Source of the DNA: an uncultured Saprospiraceae bacterium
GTDB lineage: Bacteria > Bacteroidota > Bacteroidia > Chitinophagales > Saprospiraceae
Reading direction: 5' to 3'
Length of the DNA: 64,000 nucleotides
Assembly: GCA_938007965.1 (NCBI GenBank)
Contig: CALLMH010000050.1
Coordinates: 1 to 64,000, forward strand
The notes under the pieces were generated by a model. The model saw nothing but the letters and a program-made list of their open reading frames with translations, did not search any database and was not told where the DNA came from. Below are positions 24,197 to 62,201 of the stretch, piece after piece. The translations under genes and the position numbers were made by a program. Every line of letters begins with the position of its first letter. Within the stretch, counting starts at the first letter, position 1.

Positions 24197-24230
24197 AAAG
24201 GGATGTAACAATGTTACATCCCTTTTTTTT
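24197..24230 (+). terminator. Rho-independent terminator after the OmpA-family gene
   Basis: AAAGGGATGTAAC pairs perfectly with GTTACATCCCTTT (13 bp, three-base loop) and is followed by a T run. It lies 25 bases after the stop codon. Confidence 0.9.
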
Positions 24231-52778: not shown

Positions 52779-55700
52779 CTAAAAGCCCTTAATATTCAAA
52801 ACTCCTGTCACCTTCATATCGTTGTGATTTAGAATCAGAGAGGATGGGTTTGGAGTGTTTTCATTAGAGATTACATTTACATTATTCAATAATATAGTCC
52901 CATAATTAATAATAGCACCACCTTCATTCGAGGTTCCAGATAGTAGATTTACCTTATCTAAACTCAGACTTCCTTCGGTAGTAATTTCGAATATTGTGCT
53001 TGCACCCATCGCCTTAATTAGGTATTCATTATCATCTAGTATATCTAATTGAATCTCTTTATCTATGACTATTTTACTGATCAATGATATCGTATCCATA
53101 TTGAGCGAAACATCTATAGGTACAATATCCCCATCGTCAGCGCATTCGATTGTTCGACGCAAGGATCCCCATCCGTCATCTACAGTGTAAGAAACTTCAT
53201 CTGAACATAAGGTAGTGCACGACACATCAATATCAAAACCTGATCCTGTTACAAATTGATCACTTCTAAATCTTAATAGAATACATCCAGATTCATCTGT
53301 AGAAGTAAAAGTACCTGGATTATCAGTTCCATAAAATCCTCCCGCTGGAAAGCCAGCTTGGGTAGGCCCATTTCCACTATCAAACTGAGAAGCATCGATA
53401 CTATTACCATTATATATATATAGGGCATCCCAATTAGACTCTATATTAAGCGAATTGAATGTTATCTGGATTGCTTCATCAAGGTTGGGTGAGCAGATCA
53501 ATGTAGTTACATCTTCATTGTTCGAGTATTCGCCTTCTTCACCTCCAGAATCATAAATACTGTCTCCACAATCTATTTTTCTAATATCTACTTGATCTAT
53601 ATATGTGCACATATTTCTGTCTGTAACTGTCACCGAATAAGTACCCTCGACAAGGCTATCTATTGATTGAGTTACCTCGCCATTGCTCCAGCTAAATGAA
53701 TACGGAGCTCGGCCACCTTCCGGTAATACTGATGCCGTACCATTATTTTCACTTTGATTGGTTAGGAATGTACTATTCACCCTAGCGAATAGTTCTAGCG
53801 GTGTAGAAACTATTGCTATTTTAGAAATAGCTTCTGTACCATCAGAAACGGTAACCCTGTATAATCCTGCACCTAAATCGGTCCTCATATCACTGGTAGA
53901 CCCATCAGCCCATGAATAAGAATATACGCCGCTCCCTCCACTGGCTAGTACGCTTATTGTCCCGTCCGTATCTCCATAACATAATAATTCACTCTCAACT
54001 ATATCAATTACGAAATCTCCAGCACTCGGGACTATAGCTACTGAATTAGAGAGGGCGACACCTTCCGATGTGCCATTTTCAAAAGCAGCTGTGTTGACTA
54101 TATTCAATTGTAAGTTTTTGATAACTATATCATCTATCCACCAACCATTACCGCCGACAGTTTCATCGCATATCATTTGAAATCGGATTTTAATATCTTG
54201 TCCTTCGTAAATACTTAGATCTATAATCGTATTTATAAATAATCCGCTATCTCCACTAAATCCTGATTTGGATCCAAGTGTACTATTATATCCATTATGA
54301 ATCATCCGATGTCCTAAATCAGACCAACTCTGTCCATCATCAATGGATATGAGAACAGACCCACCATCAAATCCTGGTTCTGTATCATATTTATGATGAA
54401 ATGATAGTAAACTCTCATCGCCAATTCCTACGCTTAGAGCTAGATCTAGATTAGCTTCTCCTTCAGAATCATTATTTGGTGCAAACCATGCGAATGTCCC
54501 ATCATTGACTTGGGATGATTGCAGGTTCCAGTTTGTATTGCCTGATTGACTAGTATTCCAGTTCCCAGTCCCTGATTCTAATCCATCATAAAAATCAGAT
54601 GGTGTTTTTTTCTGACCACTGTCTACCTCTAATACGACCTCAACAGTCTTAGAACTCAGAGCCGCAAGATCAAATAATGGAAACGTAATGATACCCCCCG
54701 ATTCAGTTCCCCCATCCGTCGCGGAGACAAAAGATAATCCATCAGGTATGGAATCAGTCAACATAAAATCAACTTCGTCCACTCCGGTCTGATTGTTGGT
54801 TACTGAAATTTCGTAGGTAATCTGTTCCAACTCTTCGCTGGATACTGTAGATGTAAATTTCTCTATAGTCACTGATAAATTTGGTGGCATATCAAATGAT
54901 TCCGTACCATCTGATCGACTGGTAAAACTTCCTTGATCAGCACTAAATCCTAGTCCTCTATCTGCGAATGCTTTCCAGATAAGTAGCTCGTGTGCTCCAT
55001 CGTACAACAAGCGATCTGCTTCTAATATTGCATCTCTTCCGTCTATAAAACCAGGTCTACATGGTTGTAATTTCATTCCTTCCATGACCAATGCCATTGC
55101 CATATTATTACCTCCCGTGCCATTATACATATCAGAATCAAAACCGTACTGATCGATAAAAGCCCATGTCATATCCCACAGCATAGTACACCATACAGAT
55201 CCTACTCCGTGAGGAATAGAAAAAGTTTTGATATCGTCATATGTGCTAGGGTTTACGCCGAAATCAGTACTATATGGAAAAGGTCGTATCCCTAGCCCAT
55301 CAGCTTCTTGACCAAATAACCATGTTCCTACTGTTCGGGCATCAGCCTCAGCATCTCCTACCTCGATAGTCATCACCATACCAAGATAATCAGACCACCC
55401 TTCACCCATTTGTTCTTGTCCAGCCAGACAACCAGCTGCGGAGGGTCCACCTGTCAGCCTATTAGATATTCCATGGCCATATTCGTGAGCAATTACACCA
55501 TTATCATAATCTCCATCTCGTCCATTGCACAAATACATCTGCATTCTAGGATTACTACCATCTGGAGGTGTTCCGAAATTAGCATTACACGCACCCAATC
55601 CATCTTGCACTTCACTCTGTACGTAATCACTCCCCAGCCCAGCCAGCGAATAGTTTTCTTCTTGGAAATTTCCAGACTGTTCATCAAATCCATAATTATA

Positions 55701-56756
55701 CCATACGTCGTGCATTAGATTGGTCCAGAAGAAAGTATTGGTAATAGCTGCATCTGTATAATCCGCTGGATCACCAGCTACATCTAGAGGAAAAACAAAC
55801 TCAAGATTTGCACCACCTTCAGCCCGAGAAGTATCGTCACCAGTAGGAGCATTGGTATTATCATCATCAAGATAAGTATCTGTATTATTCCCTCTTGTGG
55901 TAGTATAATCTATACCTCCTATGGTATGCCATCCATTTGGAGAAGCGACTAAATTATCATTCCAAGGCGCTGTATTTATAGATCTAGATCCAAAATTTGG
56001 ACTTTCTACGGGCAGATCAAAGACTTCATAAGTATTCGGAACTAAGATGGATTCGGCAATGAGATCACTCTTGTCTGATTTATCGTATGTATGGTATTCA
56101 TGATCGTGAGTATGGTTGCATTCTTTTGACACATCTGATCCATGATTGCACTCTACTGTCCAGCTTATCTCTTCTAGAATATCACCAGACTCTGCGTCTA
56201 CTAAGTAGTCTGTGTACCAAGCTGACCGCACATCTTCTATGGCTAATTCCCATGCTAGCCTGAGTTCTCCCGTGTCTAATATATAGTACTGGAGTTTTGC
56301 AGGAATAGGTGCGATTGATATTTCAGGTGCGGATATTAATTGTCTATTTTCTCTCCCCTCTTTATTTTCTAATTGGATAAATTGAGCATCTTGTTTTAGC
56401 CCTTTCACGGACACCACCTTATCTATAGCCTCAAAGACTGTAATCTTGGCCTTTACTGATGTACTAGAGTCTTTATTTGCTTTCTTGAAGTTTATATTAT
56501 TGATCACACTCGACCGATCTTTATAGTGTATTGCTCCTCTCGAATTAAATATCGGAATCCCTCCAATAGACTCCTTGAAGTAAGTGTGGGTAATTCCTCC
56601 TGATGTATAATGGTCTGTGATGTAGAGTCCTTTGACTAATATATTCGACTTGGATAATTGTTCGCGAACAAAACCAGCTTCAGCATGATCCGATTGGCCA
56701 ATGAGACCAACTACAGAAAAAAAGATAATCATCACGGTTTCAAAAGCTCTTTTCAT
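52779..56756 (-). CDS. M36-family (fungalysin-type) secreted zinc metallopeptidase, multidomain
   Basis: A 1325-residue secreted peptidase. A signal peptide ends near residue 20. An FTP-type propeptide follows (LVKGLYITDHYTSGGITHTYF). The M36 domain has the zinc motif HEYGHG (His424, Glu425, His428) and the third-ligand region GEGWSDYLG. Next come a DUF11-like domain (YEISVTNNQTG), a jelly-roll adhesion-like domain (about 680-890), and two SprB-type repeats (GDTDGTISVLASGGSGVYSYSW). A CUB-like domain (CGDSIYDSGG...) and a beta-helix-like end complete it. The protein ends VTGVLNIKGF and has no recognisable T9SS C-terminal domain, which is unusual for such a mosaic in this phylum. Confidence 0.9.
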   Translation of the reverse strand: MKRAFETVMIIFFSVVGLIGQSDHAEAGFVREQLSKSNILVKGLYITDHYTSGGITHTYFKESIGGIPIFNSRGAIHYKDRSSVINNINFKKANKDSSTSVKAKITVFEAIDKVVSVKGLKQDAQFIQLENKEGRENRQLISAPEISIAPIPAKLQYYILDTGELRLAWELAIEDVRSAWYTDYLVDAESGDILEEISWTVECNHGSDVSKECNHTHDHEYHTYDKSDKSDLIAESILVPNTYEVFDLPVESPNFGSRSINTAPWNDNLVASPNGWHTIGGIDYTTTRGNNTDTYLDDDNTNAPTGDDTSRAEGGANLEFVFPLDVAGDPADYTDAAITNTFFWTNLMHDVWYNYGFDEQSGNFQEENYSLAGLGSDYVQSEVQDGLGACNANFGTPPDGSNPRMQMYLCNGRDGDYDNGVIAHEYGHGISNRLTGGPSAAGCLAGQEQMGEGWSDYLGMVMTIEVGDAEADARTVGTWLFGQEADGLGIRPFPYSTDFGVNPSTYDDIKTFSIPHGVGSVWCTMLWDMTWAFIDQYGFDSDMYNGTGGNNMAMALVMEGMKLQPCRPGFIDGRDAILEADRLLYDGAHELLIWKAFADRGLGFSADQGSFTSRSDGTESFDMPPNLSVTIEKFTSTVSSEELEQITYEISVTNNQTGVDEVDFMLTDSIPDGLSFVSATDGGTESGGIITFPLFDLAALSSKTVEVVLEVDSGQKKTPSDFYDGLESGTGNWNTSQSGNTNWNLQSSQVNDGTFAWFAPNNDSEGEANLDLALSVGIGDESLLSFHHKYDTEPGFDGGSVLISIDDGQSWSDLGHRMIHNGYNSTLGSKSGFSGDSGLFINTIIDLSIYEGQDIKIRFQMICDETVGGNGWWIDDIVIKNLQLNIVNTAAFENGTSEGVALSNSVAIVPSAGDFVIDIVESELLCYGDTDGTISVLASGGSGVYSYSWADGSTSDMRTDLGAGLYRVTVSDGTEAISKIAIVSTPLELFARVNSTFLTNQSENNGTASVLPEGGRAPYSFSWSNGEVTQSIDSLVEGTYSVTVTDRNMCTYIDQVDIRKIDCGDSIYDSGGEEGEYSNNEDVTTLICSPNLDEAIQITFNSLNIESNWDALYIYNGNSIDASQFDSGNGPTQAGFPAGGFYGTDNPGTFTSTDESGCILLRFRSDQFVTGSGFDIDVSCTTLCSDEVSYTVDDGWGSLRRTIECADDGDIVPIDVSLNMDTISLISKIVIDKEIQLDILDDNEYLIKAMGASTIFEITTEGSLSLDKVNLLSGTSNEGGAIINYGTILLNNVNVISNENTPNPSSLILNHNDMKVTGVLNIKGF

Positions 56757-56845: not shown

Positions 56846-58309
56846 CTATTTCTCATTTAGAGTTTCATGTATATCCATATTTGCAGCACTTATCGCTGGT
56901 ATCATTGACGCCGCTACTCCTATCAATAAAGAAATGACAAGTAGGATCCATTCTTCTTTCATAAAATGCCAGCCTGAAAAAGAATATTTATAAGAACTCT
57001 TCAAGGATGTAGCCAATATCTCCATTCCTACATGGCTAAATATGAACCCCACAAAAAATCCGATGGCAGTCATAATCATGCCCTCGACAGTAATCAATGC
57101 ATATAAACTAGATCGACTTCCTCCCATCACTCTTATCAATGCGAGCTCGTATTTTCGTTCTCTCATGGATTTCAGTAATACGATAAATATGCTGATCGCC
57201 GATATGATCCCTATCAAGATAGCCAACCACTGAAGCATCTGTCTGCCTGATCCTATCATCGAGTAGAGTCTATTGATCTCGATGGCAGGAGATGCTGCTT
57301 GCATATCTGTATTCTCATTTATTGACCTAGGCATACTTAGTGCTTGGAAGTTTGTCCTGTTTCTGAATTTGATGAGCAAAGTGGTAATCTCTTTGTCAGG
57401 AAATTTTAGCAATTCAGCGTTCGTCCGAGCAAGAGGTCCGTGTGCATGATTAGTATGATCGTGTTCTGTATGATCTTCTGCTGCATGATCAGGATGACCA
57501 TCTCCATCATGGTCATGGTCGTGATGTTCTTCTGGTTTATGATCGGGTTTTCCATCTCCGTCTTGGTCATGCTCATGGTCGTCATGACTATGTCCTTCAT
57601 GGCTATGTCCCGAGTGATCATGATCTGAGTGATTATGATCTGCGTGATCTACTTCTTGATCTGTTGTCATCGGGCTATCATCTGAGTGGTCATGTACGTT
57701 CCATACTGTGGATGGATTAGTCAATATCAATTGATCTATAACACTTCCTGTCCCATTCATTATTCCAGTTACTATAAAAGCTGCGTGGTCATGAGCGAGA
57801 TCCTCATCATCATTAAATCCATGAGAACTTTTGAATTTATCTCCTACCTCTAATCCTGTATCATCGGCGACTGCCTTTCCGATTACCACCTCAAGGTCGC
57901 TATCATAGAATCTACCTTGACTTATAGTAGCATTGTAAAATGACATCAAACTATCAGTAGTACCTACAATCCGATACGATTTATAATTATCACCTAGAGA
58001 TAGAGGCACAGCTGCCTTTATGAGAGGATGTTTGGGATTCAGGAAAGCTTTCACTTCGCTTACTTTCACATTCCCAGTAGGAGCGTCTACATGGTACATA
58101 CTTGATAATATCATCTGCAAAGGCGATCCTTTTGCTCCAATTACCAGGTCTATTCCTGCCAGATTACTATCAAACTTGTTTTTCAATTGAGTATTGAAGA
58201 GAATCAAGAAATTGATCAAGCCTATACCTAACCCAAAGAGTATAATACTCAATAGTAAGTTAAGTGGATTGTGTATAATGTTCTTCCAAGCTAACTTTAG
58301 TACTTTCAT
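56846..58309 (-). CDS. FtsX/MacB-type ABC permease with His/Asp-rich periplasmic loop
   Basis: A 487-residue permease with an N-terminal helix (about 18-39), a large periplasmic MacB-like domain (GIDLVIGAKGSPLQMIL, VPLSLGDNYKSYRIVG), and three C-terminal helices from residue 360 on. Residues 206-290 form an insertion with 25 His and many Asp, including two TSP3-like DxDGDGxPDH units. Related permeases in proteobacteria belong to gene groups tied to the zinc-limitation response (for example around PA4065 in Pseudomonas), so metal binding is plausible. Its start overlaps the stop of the ATPase gene by four bases. Confidence 0.88.
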   Translation of the reverse strand: MKVLKLAWKNIIHNPLNLLLSIILFGLGIGLINFLILFNTQLKNKFDSNLAGIDLVIGAKGSPLQMILSSMYHVDAPTGNVKVSEVKAFLNPKHPLIKAAVPLSLGDNYKSYRIVGTTDSLMSFYNATISQGRFYDSDLEVVIGKAVADDTGLEVGDKFKSSHGFNDDEDLAHDHAAFIVTGIMNGTGSVIDQLILTNPSTVWNVHDHSDDSPMTTDQEVDHADHNHSDHDHSGHSHEGHSHDDHEHDQDGDGKPDHKPEEHHDHDHDGDGHPDHAAEDHTEHDHTNHAHGPLARTNAELLKFPDKEITTLLIKFRNRTNFQALSMPRSINENTDMQAASPAIEINRLYSMIGSGRQMLQWLAILIGIISAISIFIVLLKSMRERKYELALIRVMGGSRSSLYALITVEGMIMTAIGFFVGFIFSHVGMEILATSLKSSYKYSFSGWHFMKEEWILLVISLLIGVAASMIPAISAANMDIHETLNEK

Positions 58310-58956
58310 TTCGCTAAGGTTGATTGGTGCGTTAATGTGATCTGATTTGGAATGATATCTTTAAGCCTAGCGTCATGTGTTACGATTACGAGTGCCGCTT
58401 CCGCAAGTTCGGCTTGTTCTTCTAATAGAGAGATCACCTCTTTACAATTATCATCATCCAGAGCGGACGTTGGCTCATCTGCAAGTATTAACTTCGGACT
58501 ATTAGCCAATACTCGTGCGATAGCAACCCTTTGTTTTTGCCCTTCACTTAGAGTATTGATAGGTTTATTCGCTTTATCTTTGATATTGAGTCGATCAAGT
58601 AGAGATTTACACTTCTCTTCGTCTTCCTTACCTCCCGAAAAAAATTGAGACATTAGTAAGTTATCAAGTACACTGAGAGAGGAGATAAAATGATTTTTTT
58701 GAAAGATGATACCGATGTTCGTCCCTCGAAACTGGTCCAATGCTTTGTTAGTCAACTTGGTCATATCCGTATTGCACAATTCGATAGACCCTTTATTCGT
58801 AGACAATAGACCACCTAATAGATGCAGTAATGTACTCTTACCCACTCCAGAAGATCCTAGAACTAATAATTGCTCTTTTGCCTTGCACTGAAAATCAGGA
58901 AATTCGAATGATTCCCCATTCTGGTATTTATATTTTAAAGAGGTTACTTTTAGCAC
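58306..58956 (-). CDS. ABC transporter ATP-binding protein (LolD/MacB type)
   Basis: ATPase partner of the adjacent permease (216 residues). Walker A is VLGSSGVGKSTLL, the signature motif is NTLSEGQKQRVAIARVLA, Walker B is LILADEPTSALDD, and the switch His is in LVIVTHDARL. A frame open to an ATG at 59037 adds 27 residues (LRLPPLKSYSYS...) that do not resemble the family. A GTG at 58956 gives the expected VLKVTSLKYKYQNG beginning, so it was chosen, with some uncertainty. Such pairs extrude or remodel envelope substrates rather than import. Confidence 0.88.
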   Translation of the reverse strand: MLKVTSLKYKYQNGESFEFPDFQCKAKEQLLVLGSSGVGKSTLLHLLGGLLSTNKGSIELCNTDMTKLTNKALDQFRGTNIGIIFQKNHFISSLSVLDNLLMSQFFSGGKEDEEKCKSLLDRLNIKDKANKPINTLSEGQKQRVAIARVLANSPKLILADEPTSALDDDNCKEVISLLEEQAELAEAALVIVTHDARLKDIIPNQITLTHQSTLAK

Positions 58957-59075
58957 TTTACAGATTTTGATTTGCAGGCTCAATATACTATAAGAATATG
59001 ATTTTAACGGAGGAAGTCGAAGTATTAAATGAATCAAAAAAACCTCTCATAGATGATCATATTGTAGTACAATCG

Positions 59076-59621
59076 TCATTTGAATCCATAATTATAAACG
59101 GGCTCTTTGCCGTCTTTAGATATGATCGCCCAAAACTTATGGTTTGACAACTCAGGTACTTGTAATAAGAAGATCCAATTCTTTGATACATCTTCTCCTT
59201 CTTCAGCATGAAAACACTGATCTGAAGCTCCTTCTATATCCGGCATACAGATACTACCTCCGTCATTAATTAGCTCTCTTAGTTTCTCAAGGTGTTGCTG
59301 AGGTTTGGAAGCATTACCTCTATAAGCATTTATCGAGTGAGGCACGACCGCTAGTGGGGAACCCGGATTACTATTATCCGTCAAGTAACTTTCGATCGCA
59401 AGATCAAGTGCATCCGCATAGGAGTACAAATCATCTGTTTCAATTGATTCTAATACAGACATATCATAATTGACTTTTATCCCATTCAGCCCATGCTTTA
59501 TCAAAATGTCAATGGTCTTAGGTCGTTGGACATCATTCGGTATCGCTAATCTGCTAGTGCTACAGCTGATTATTAAAACCATACCTAAAACAAAAAAAGT
59601 AAACTTCAATCCCTTCATCAA
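59076..59621 (-). CDS. Hypothetical lipoprotein
   Basis: A 181-residue lipoprotein with a signal and lipobox (VLIISC, Cys near residue 21). The mature part has no family I know. Two cysteines (SICMPDIEGASDQCF) lie 11 residues apart, and the end (NHKFWAIISKDGKEPVYNYGFK) is beta-like. The ATG at 59621 is followed by another at 59618; either may be used. It precedes the ABC ATPase gene by 119 bases on the same strand and could be its envelope partner, but position is the only evidence. Confidence 0.65.
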   Translation of the reverse strand: MMKGLKFTFFVLGMVLIISCSTSRLAIPNDVQRPKTIDILIKHGLNGIKVNYDMSVLESIETDDLYSYADALDLAIESYLTDNSNPGSPLAVVPHSINAYRGNASKPQQHLEKLRELINDGGSICMPDIEGASDQCFHAEEGEDVSKNWIFLLQVPELSNHKFWAIISKDGKEPVYNYGFK

Positions 59622-59762
59622 ATTATTTATATGAGCAAATCATATTGCCAGAATCTAGACTAACATCTAGCTAGATTCTCAATTCAACTGAAATACTATT
59701 GTGACTTTATTATAATCTTTCTTAAAACTGCAATTATATGTTGTGCAGATAATTTAAGCTTT

Positions 59763-62201
59763 TCATTTTACCAATCTTGTTTTTGGATATAGATTGTACC
59801 ATGCAAACCAAAATGCATTATGGGACGGTGCTCTAAGTAGTTTCCTTCCATTTTTAGAAATAAGGTATTCTTCATTCACATCCCAAATATCGCCCTTTAC
59901 ATCAGTAAGTACTCCTTTTTTATAGGTCTTGAATTTCACATTCTTGGAATAAAAAACCCTCGATGCCCCGTCTTTTTCAGTAATGACTAATACATTTTTA
60001 TCAGCAATTGTATTTTGGTGAATTCTTTCCTTTTTGAGATACTTGATAGAAATTGCAAGCGGATCTGTCTTGAATCTTGGAGACCTGATGATGAGCACCT
60101 CATCCTTATTGTCTAAACGCTCTACCTGAATTGGTACAGGAAACATCAGTTCATCATTAGAAAAATATGATTTGTATGCTGCCCCTTCAGCATAGTTTCT
60201 ATCAAACCCAGTATCTAGAGATAGAACTTTCGTTTCGGGATGGTCTTTTACCCAATTCTTCCATTTGGTTGTAACAACTGGAAAACTTTTAAGCTTTATC
60301 CCTTTATTGGATAGAGGTCCGAGTACGGGCTCTCCATCTATAGTAGACCAGAGAGATTTTGTTTTTTTGTCTACCATCAATTTATTGGATCGATAAAGAA
60401 ACCCGCTGGTACTGAGCTCATGGATATCTTTTCTATGATTCATATCATAGGCTATCATAGTACCACATAATGTGCAATATACCCCTGCAACATTTTCCTC
60501 TCCTATTTTATCTATAAAAAACTCATGCCATGCCAAAATCCGCTTTGGATATGCTTTTGCCTCACCATTTATTACGATTCCGAATACGATGTCATTATTA
60601 TTAAGATAGTCAGCCGCATCGGCATTTATCATTTTTGGTAGTTTGAGTTGGGGAATACTATTAGACTTTACACCTCCCCATACTATCTCATCTAGACTTA
60701 TCCTTGCTGTACTTTGTTGACCAATAAAGTAACTTCTAAATACAGGATCAATATGCTGATAAATCTCAGCTTTGTTATCTAGGTAGTAATTATCGTATAC
60801 AGGTTCGTCTGACCACATCCACTGTAACCCATCAAAATAATTGAATATCTCAGCTTTGGTAACCAATAATTCTATAATCCTAGGATTCAGTTCTTCAGAT
60901 GTGATCATCTTATTTATATCTAATAACATCGGAATGTATGAATCCTTCCATGTACGCTCTATATAACTTAGTGTCTCTGTCCGTGTATTCTTATCCCCAT
61001 ACAGCAATGCATGCGTTATAGATAAGGACGTTGTGTCCAATTCTGCGACAGGATTTCGTTCAGTTTTTGACTCATTTATTGCTGTCTTTGCCGACTCTAC
61101 CACAAAACCATAGTCGAATGGTAATAAATCCGCTATCGAGTGCTCTGTCCAGTATCCATATTTCTGTACGCTTTCCTGATTTCGTATTATACCGTACTTG
61201 TCCACTACCAAGTAAGGATCACTCTTATATATCATCGAAACTGGATGTCCTAACACAACATCCTCTTCATTATTAGCACCAAATAGACGGCTATCTCTAC
61301 CTAAACCCGCAGAAATTTTACGCTTATCTTTGATCTGATTTATATCTAAATGAACGACTTCTAAATAATCCTCAAATGCAATGTGATAAAATCCACTCAC
61401 AGAATCTAATGAAACCAACCTCCTTGATCTGGTGGATTCTAATTCATTGAGTGCATCATCTTTATGCTGTTTAGTTCCTATTTTATAGTTTGATTGGTCA
61501 AGATCATCAGCGATCATGCTAAGAACAAAATGGTTTGTACTTTTTTCGTACGATTCTTTTCTGTTTTTATCAATCTCGGCTCGATTAGATGTAAGACTTC
61601 GATCAGTAAATTTAGAATAACTAGTATATCTCATCGAACCGTCCTTATCAATCGTCAGCTCTTTCATCAAAAAACTAATATCGTACCCTAAATAATGGTT
61701 TTTTATTTTCAGCACGTCTATCGCTGTTGCCGTAAATATGCCCTCTTCATTTGAAAATCTCAAAACCTGCGGATTTATAATTTCACACAATACGGCTCTT
61801 TTACCAGTGCCAATAAATGCCTTAGAGAATTTCCTATAGTTTTGTTTCCATTGTTTTGCCCGCTTGCCGTCGATTCCTAGAGAACTAAGATCTATATAAT
61901 TCGGCTCTAGATATATAGTATCTCCCGGACCAAAAGTGCTGTAGGTATTGTGCGAAATTAACAAATCGTCATAAGCAACATGTGAGGCGAAGAGCTCCAT
62001 GGTTACGTCCATAGGAATATCAAATGCGCAATTACCGTCTTTATCACTGGATGTGCCAAAGGTGGAATTTCCTACAAAAATGTGTGCACCAGATATAGGT
62101 AGACTTGTTTCCTTATCCAAGACTGTAAATTCCAAACTTCTAACCTGAGCATGAACAGAACCTAGAAAAACCACAAAAATAAGTAACATTAATGATCTCA
62201 T
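59763..62201 (-). CDS. DUF3179 protein fused to a carboxypeptidase-regulatory-like N-terminus
   Basis: An 812-residue exported protein. A signal peptide ends near residue 19 (GSVHAQ). A CarboxypepD_reg-like domain follows (LPISGAHIFVGNSTFGTSSD), then a segment of about 250 residues typical of such outer-membrane-associated proteins (WKQNYRKFSKAFIGTGKRA). The C-terminal third is DUF3179: INGEAKAYPKRILAWHEFF, GVYCTLCGTMIAYDM with a CxxC, and GFLYRSNKLMVDKKTKSLW. DUF3179 normally stands alone in shorter proteins. Function is unknown. It is 20 bases downstream of a methyltransferase gene on the same strand. Confidence 0.82.
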   Translation of the reverse strand: MRSLMLLIFVVFLGSVHAQVRSLEFTVLDKETSLPISGAHIFVGNSTFGTSSDKDGNCAFDIPMDVTMELFASHVAYDDLLISHNTYSTFGPGDTIYLEPNYIDLSSLGIDGKRAKQWKQNYRKFSKAFIGTGKRAVLCEIINPQVLRFSNEEGIFTATAIDVLKIKNHYLGYDISFLMKELTIDKDGSMRYTSYSKFTDRSLTSNRAEIDKNRKESYEKSTNHFVLSMIADDLDQSNYKIGTKQHKDDALNELESTRSRRLVSLDSVSGFYHIAFEDYLEVVHLDINQIKDKRKISAGLGRDSRLFGANNEEDVVLGHPVSMIYKSDPYLVVDKYGIIRNQESVQKYGYWTEHSIADLLPFDYGFVVESAKTAINESKTERNPVAELDTTSLSITHALLYGDKNTRTETLSYIERTWKDSYIPMLLDINKMITSEELNPRIIELLVTKAEIFNYFDGLQWMWSDEPVYDNYYLDNKAEIYQHIDPVFRSYFIGQQSTARISLDEIVWGGVKSNSIPQLKLPKMINADAADYLNNNDIVFGIVINGEAKAYPKRILAWHEFFIDKIGEENVAGVYCTLCGTMIAYDMNHRKDIHELSTSGFLYRSNKLMVDKKTKSLWSTIDGEPVLGPLSNKGIKLKSFPVVTTKWKNWVKDHPETKVLSLDTGFDRNYAEGAAYKSYFSNDELMFPVPIQVERLDNKDEVLIIRSPRFKTDPLAISIKYLKKERIHQNTIADKNVLVITEKDGASRVFYSKNVKFKTYKKGVLTDVKGDIWDVNEEYLISKNGRKLLRAPSHNAFWFAWYNLYPKTRLVK

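Follow-up and report, generated by a model that had tools for sequence, protein, structure and literature searches.

A histidine-rich loop in an FtsX/MacB-like ABC permease of Saprospiraceae, a ZrgA-less relative of Zur-linked transporters with a putative role in zinc handling

What does an ABC permease do with 25 histidines packed into a short stretch of what is predicted to be its periplasmic domain? The question is raised by a gene in the window, a stretch of 64,000 nucleotides from an uncultured Saprospiraceae bacterium, and a search of open-licence PMC papers listed none that describes such a permease from Bacteroidota. Published studies disagree on whether the related Zrg/PA4065 transporters take up zinc or export a chelator. 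A histidine triad that hardly varies across three phyla, together with a histidine-rich element inside the permease itself, provides defined residues, and a clean deletion of the loop, by which their role could be settled. For Bacteroidota, the present analysis also yields a candidate zinc operator with its regulon, on which the same literature search returned no study.

The permease and its histidines

The gene (56846..58309, minus strand, ATG start) encodes a protein of 487 residues that scores above the Pfam cut-offs for both FtsX (PF02687, 43.8 bits, cut-off 25.5) and MacB_PCD (PF12704, 32.9 bits, cut-off 27). An AlphaFold2 model, based on 77 aligned homologues and having a mean pLDDT of 86, contains four transmembrane (TM) helices (residues 15-50, 341-384, 399-440 and 451-476). 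With both domains and four TM helices, the protein is an FtsX/MacB-like ABC permease. The best structural match to the model is 5xu1_M (Z 25.3, rmsd 7.2 over 352 residues); other matches are LolE (9rld, Z 23.5), MacB (5gko, Z 19.7, rmsd 4.4 over 354 residues) and 5nik (Z 19.5).

The initial annotation had singled out residues 206-290, and its figure of 25 histidines is exact: of the 85 residues, 25 are H, 21 are D and 7 are E. No strand had been named; the block is encoded on the minus strand and maps exactly to 57694-57440 (57440..57694), the plus-strand reading of these positions being non-coding. The next-highest of the 72 open frames in the window (stop to stop, at least 100 residues) has 7 histidines per 85 residues, and the whole permease, shuffled 20,000 times, gave at most 17, in a control that is lenient because the block's own 25 histidines belong to the shuffled composition. 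In the model, the block starts close to where a predicted helix (199-209) ends and lies between TM1 and TM2, with nearly all of residues 212-288 below a pLDDT of 50. Position and pLDDT together point to a disordered loop of the periplasmic domain, which is where the annotation had placed it. The histidine codons are mixed (18 CAT, 7 CAC) and the DNA repeats in the block are short, imperfect and of 15 bp, so that it is not a recent pure microsatellite.

Conservation was followed in 178 distinct homologues, i.e. differing in their last 120 residues, of which 163 are from Bacteroidota and 15 from Deinococcota, Alpha- and Gammaproteobacteria. Among the 163, the block stays in the same place and varies in length between 12 and 148 residues, the pattern for which the initial annotation had proposed to look. 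It holds 1-57 histidines (median 9), at least five in 137 homologues and at most two in 5. The histidine fraction, calculated for 79 homologues, is 0.175 in the block region versus 0.020 elsewhere in the protein.

A TSP3-like calcium motif had also been read into the block. The two DxDGDGxPDH units are present as described, at residues 248-257 (57539..57568, minus strand) and 266-275 (57485..57514, minus strand), but they are genus-specific. The pattern D.D.DG..D is found in 3 of 173 homologues, namely the window permease and two other members of its genus, and the calcium reading is for this reason rejected as a property of the family.

We now consider the histidines that are fixed in position. 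H163 (codon 57821..57823, minus strand) and H206 (57692..57694, minus strand), the latter being the first residue of the block, are histidine in 178 of the 178 homologues. H173 (57791..57793, minus strand) is histidine by alignment column in 174, and the other four have a histidine within a few residues. A further position, H73 (58091..58093, minus strand), is histidine in 135 of the 178 and is otherwise Q, Y, L, R or a further residue; its counts are inflated in a set of 80 loci, because the peptide patterns by which that set was found, [YF]H[IV]DxPTGN and GAKGSPLQ[LM], selected for H73, while H163, H173 and H206 lie outside the patterns. The 80 loci were kept from a named genome collection with at least 586 relatives and are mostly from Saprospiraceae, together with Pedobacter, Algoriphagus, Dysgonomonas and others. 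A pattern for the triad H163/H173/H206 matches 145 of 173 homologues. Unlike the window permease, the host genome's other MacB_PCD proteins show neither triad nor histidine block, and the triad pattern matches 0 of 11 ORFs of at least 300 residues in their six loci. We regard the triad, in the periplasmic domain, as a putative structured metal site.

The suggestion that related permeases in Pseudomonas belong to a zinc-starvation gene group also holds. A P. aeruginosa record in the plasmid collection has the gene order ZrgA (DUF2796), ATPase, permease and DUF3299, followed by oprG, with profile matches for ZrgA (PF10986, E 1.5e-56) and DUF3299 (PF11736, E 2e-47). By gene order and content it is taken to be PA4063-PA4066, the gene numbers being those given in the consulted portions of PMC8561739 and PMC11481552. 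Its permease, PA4065, is homologous to the window permease (BLASTP E 1e-27, 27% identity over 237 residues, and the C-terminal domain in addition) and shares the triad.

ZrgA (PF10986) was found neither in the host genome nor above cut-off in any of 395 Bacteroidota, which gave four weak fragments; no control genome was matched in this search, and the model is the same one that recovers the Pseudomonas protein. The ZrgA-bearing operons of Phaeobacter and Aeromonas look like that of P. aeruginosa. Among the 15 non-Bacteroidota permeases, three are accompanied by ZrgA and have blocks with 1-2 histidines; of the 12 without ZrgA, six have a block of 12-28 residues with 1-2 histidines and six have 8-16 histidines. 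A strict either/or between ZrgA and the histidine block is rejected on account of the former six. Since both ZrgA and a histidine-rich block are missing from several Alphaproteobacteria and Deinococcus, neither feature is essential to the family, and a shift of the histidine-rich element from a partner to the permease would be no more than a trend.

Operon, neighbourhoods and a candidate operator

Directly preceding the permease, with a 4-base overlap, is the gene of an ABC ATPase of the LolD/MacB kind (58306..58956, minus strand). The automatic frame begins at 59037, but the GTG at 58956 is kept in four genus members and is most likely the start. Just upstream lies a lipoprotein-like gene (59076..59621, minus strand; 181 residues, TTG start, no family), with which the operon possibly begins. 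Three of four genus members (the window and two of three others) have the order methyltransferase, DUF3179, lipoprotein, ATPase, permease, M36 protease, and the remaining member is without the lipoprotein and M36 genes. The lipoprotein is present in just 8 of 60 related genomes, host included, and is thus probably a local addition. The permease itself has a homologue in 38 of these 60 genomes and, in the wider sample of Bacteroidota, in 64 of 395 genomes, with the host included in both counts.

The gene directly downstream of the permease (window 52779-56756) encodes a secreted M36 fungalysin-type protease with SprB repeats, of which one genus relative (L219) has two copies and another (L220) none. 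The DUF3179 protein upstream (window 59763-62201) is found at the same position in two genus relatives. A profile search of the window gave no DUF3299-like, Fur, MerC or COG0523 neighbour of the operon, and genes for an adaptor, an outer-membrane channel or the synthesis of a chelator were likewise not recognised alongside it.

In some other Bacteroidota, the permease stands in zinc-type neighbourhoods with COG0523, MerC and Fur-family genes. The available part of PMC2770081 describes a zinc-linked subset of COG0523 proteins. For the 80 loci and the window, 81 stretches in all (with no permease frame in loci L070 and L117), the neighbours among the matches listed are the ATPase cluster in 70, a DUF3299-like protein in 45, MerC in 11, the Fur family in 10 and COG0523/CobW in 10. 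At 56 phylum-wide permease loci, counted within five frames on each side at an HMM E of 1e-3, the numbers are 40 for the ATPase, 36 for DUF3299-like, 6 for MerC, 3 for Fur and 6 for CobW; locus L183 gave no permease frame, and 7 of the 63 other genomes with a permease match were left out, one of them (G009) having been sampled in the earlier set. Zinc-type neighbours other than DUF3299 are found at a minority of permease loci. Several Pedobacter loci have the order CobW (divergent), MerC, ATPase, permease, DUF3299-like, Fur, and the Fur-family protein of the host has 42% identity to the operon-borne one of Pedobacter cryoconitis. The CobW matches in the host genome are weak.

The DUF3299-like neighbour is an exported protein of about 150 residues with an invariant CxxC (in the 45 of 81 stretches, among the matches listed). 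PF11736 matches 13 of 44 such proteins, the PDB match to 4hsp (PA4066) is weak (E 0.044), and a single-sequence PDB search gave nothing useful. In the host, a tandem pair of DUF3299-like genes lies on a different contig from the permease, next to glycosyltransferase genes (L148:6280-7301, contig C92).

We now turn to the palindrome TGCAAY-N3-RTTGCA, which is enriched before the permease operon in other Bacteroidota. With one mismatch allowed, TGCAAT-N3-ATTGCA occurs within 3 kb upstream of 13 of 135 permease loci, whereas 59 permuted half-sites averaged 0.9 loci and never exceeded 5; this control is post hoc, because the word was picked after three exact palindromes had been seen upstream of relatives. 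The host genome (4.19 Mb) has one exact copy, TGCAAYNNNRTTGCA, located 80 bp before a lipoprotein gene and TonB receptor pair (L234:5697-8679, contig C4). The sole PDB match of this receptor at 1e-10 is ZnuD (E 8.9e-18); in NCBIfam, a heme-type receptor model (E 4.5e-32) scores slightly better than ZnuD (4e-29), both under cut-off. As the word was chosen without use of the ZnuD-like match, the position of TGCAAYNNNRTTGCA provides independent though single support for a zinc-type operator, at a count of one exact match per genome that is, by a rough estimate, about that of chance. With one mismatch, the host has 18 sites versus 7 for the reversed control.

Near the window operon, no operator box was found within two mismatches. 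A three-mismatch site at 59689 was discarded, being near chance (73 such sites in 64 kb) and not conserved in the genus, as was the perfect inverted repeat ATTGTA-C-TACAAT in the gap between lipoprotein and ATPase, considered as a Fur-family box and not seen in the upstream sequences of genus relatives. Two further palindromes are recorded here: ACAAATGCAACAATGTTGCATTTGT, a longer one inside which the host TGCAAYNNNRTTGCA sits, and the perfect TGTAACAATGTTACA at window 24204-24218, shortly downstream of an OmpA-like gene, which could be a terminator or an operator.

A putative role in zinc handling, and alternatives

We propose, at slightly better than even confidence, that the pair encoded by 58956-56846 is an FtsX/MacB-like (mechanotransmission) ABC transporter that, when zinc is scarce, handles periplasmic zinc or a periplasmic molecule with zinc bound to it, as a sister of ZrgB/ZrgC of Vibrio and PA4065/PA4064 of Pseudomonas. 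The proposal is based on the homology to PA4065, the triad, the variable disordered histidine loop, the lack of a detectable ZrgA, and the zinc-starvation neighbours and palindrome elsewhere in Bacteroidota. Against it stand the window operon itself, with neither an operator nearby nor zinc-type neighbours, and the near absence of the block (at most two histidines) in 5 of 163 Bacteroidota homologues. The minority share of loci with zinc-type neighbours other than DUF3299, the members of the family outside Bacteroidota that lack both ZrgA and a histidine-rich block, the dispensable ZrgA loop of V. cholerae and the case made for pyochelin export in P. aeruginosa also weigh against it.

In the mechanism envisaged, the flexible loop would serve as antenna and buffer for zinc, binding it with low affinity, raising the local metal level and feeding the triad, the latter being the structured site, and it would take over the role of the separate histidine-rich ZrgA. 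Permeases of the FtsX/MacB type use ATP to move their periplasmic domain, a coupling that is described for MacB in the consulted text of PMC11481552. Here, such a movement may hand over the metal, perhaps to the DUF3299-like partner with its CxxC.

Export of a metallophore or another small molecule, as proposed for PA4064-PA4065, is a different way to read the same features, with block and triad sensing or stripping metal at the gate. We consider it rather unlikely. It draws on the MacB-like fold (5gko, 5nik), on the pyochelin and cobalt accumulated by a P. aeruginosa mutant of this system, from which the portion of PMC11481552 at hand argues for pyochelin export and not zinc uptake, and on an alphaproteobacterial operon (L216) in which ATPase, permease and DUF3299 are preceded by a gene for a biotin/lipoyl-binding, adaptor-like protein. 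The model is, however, matched at least equally well by LolE and further FtsX-type permeases that are not exporters, and neither beside the window operon nor among the identified recurrent neighbour clusters was a gene for an adaptor, an outer-membrane channel or the synthesis of a chelator recognised.

The transporter could instead be a true Zrg-type zinc importer, the block being a built-in, tethered substrate-binding segment that replaces ZrgA. The reduced growth of V. cholerae zrg knockouts under zinc limitation, as reported in the accessible part of PMC9820375, is in line with this, and so is the finding that ZrgA is not found where the block is present. The block is, on the other hand, nearly absent in some ZrgA-less members. 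Moreover, we know of no FtsX/MacB-type permease, with its four TM helices, that passes ions inward, and import is in our judgement unlikely. It is quite improbable, finally, that the block is a tolerated low-complexity linker, lengthened and shortened by replication slippage and having no function of its own, with the triad alone being of importance. The wide range of lengths (12-148 residues) with little alignable sequence, the predicted disorder, the short imperfect 15-bp repeats and the few members with 1-2 histidines would all suit such a linker. What is kept, however, is composition and not sequence (at least five histidines in 137 of 163 Bacteroidota homologues), the histidine fraction is almost nine times as high as elsewhere in the protein, and the codons are mixed.

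Of 11 annotated plasmid regions read, eight have an operon of alkaline phosphatase, hypothetical protein of about 150 residues, ABC ATPase and FtsX permease, the permease carrying the same triad (L134, L135, L209, L210, L211, L213, L214 and L217, from Deinococcus and Alphaproteobacteria). For L134 and L135, which were checked, the phosphatase belongs to PF00245, a family of zinc enzymes, and the small protein has CPFC. This operon suggests a link between the permease family and the metal loading of a secreted enzyme. On a tentative and rather doubtful extension of zinc handling, the family would be a periplasmic zinc-allocation machine, in which an ATP-driven FtsX-type permease with a histidine antenna and a three-histidine site charges a CxxC DUF3299-like carrier, by which zinc would reach secreted enzymes; the operon of PhoA, CxxC protein, ATPase and permease in Alphaproteobacteria and Deinococcus would be its dedicated form and the Bacteroidota operon its general zinc-starvation form. 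A Rhodobacteraceae plasmid (L216:2869-7112) has a biotin/lipoyl-binding adaptor-like protein, ATPase, a histidine-block permease (16 histidines) and DUF3299, an arrangement that looks more like a tripartite exporter.

Comparison with known systems

MacB, the macrolide/toxin exporter, has the periplasmic core domain and FtsX-type TM fold in common with the window permease. In MacB the nucleotide-binding domain is fused to the permease, whereas the window system is split into two polypeptides, with no MacA or TolC partner seen beside it, and the window proteins do not reach the NCBIfam MacB cut-off. LolCDE shares the LolE fold and a LolD-like ATPase with the window pair, but the scores are far under the curated cut-offs (37.9 of 362 bits for lolCE, 166.7 of 308 bits for LolD). 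TSP3-type calcium proteins differ in that DxDxDGxxD repeats are not a family-wide trait of the permease (3 of 173).

PA4063-PA4066, which is zinc- and Zur-controlled according to the part of PMC11481552 available to us, has a ZrgB-type permease with the same three histidines and an adjacent LolD/MacB-type ATPase, as in the window, and a DUF3299 protein, as in many relatives of the window permease. PA4065 has just 2 histidines in the corresponding segment of 32 residues, compared with 25 in the block of the window permease, and the histidine-rich ZrgA of P. aeruginosa is a separate gene that was not detected in Bacteroidota.

The ZrgABCDE system of Vibrio consists of the same kinds of genes as window-type operons and is induced by zinc starvation (excerpts of PMC9817125 and PMC9820375), with a 76- to 206-fold induction of the zrg operon of V. 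parahaemolyticus under zinc limitation in the former. In V. cholerae, ZrgA is needed for function, yet its histidine-rich loop is dispensable for growth (PMC9820375, in the section consulted), and the window system has no ZrgA counterpart. The literature on these relatives, as far as the portions used here extend, is in conflict, with zinc uptake in Vibrio (PMC9820375, PMC9817125) versus pyochelin and cobalt export in P. aeruginosa (PMC11481552). The histidine-rich loops of ZnuA and ZrgA, as portrayed in the parts of the sources at hand, are likewise disordered, rich in His, Asp and Glu, variable in length and located on a periplasmic zinc protein, whereas the window loop belongs to the permease itself.

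Of the Zrg components, the window has the permease homologous to ZrgB/PA4065, while its operon contains neither ZrgA nor DUF3299 (ZrgE). Because ZrgA was searched for and not found, we class the pair as a sister of the Zrg system and not as a Zrg system, with a physiology that is probably the same. The histidine-rich feature is real and conserved, and the window transporter is a ZrgA-less branch of the known Zur-linked FtsX/MacB-like permease family, for which zinc is the putative metal.
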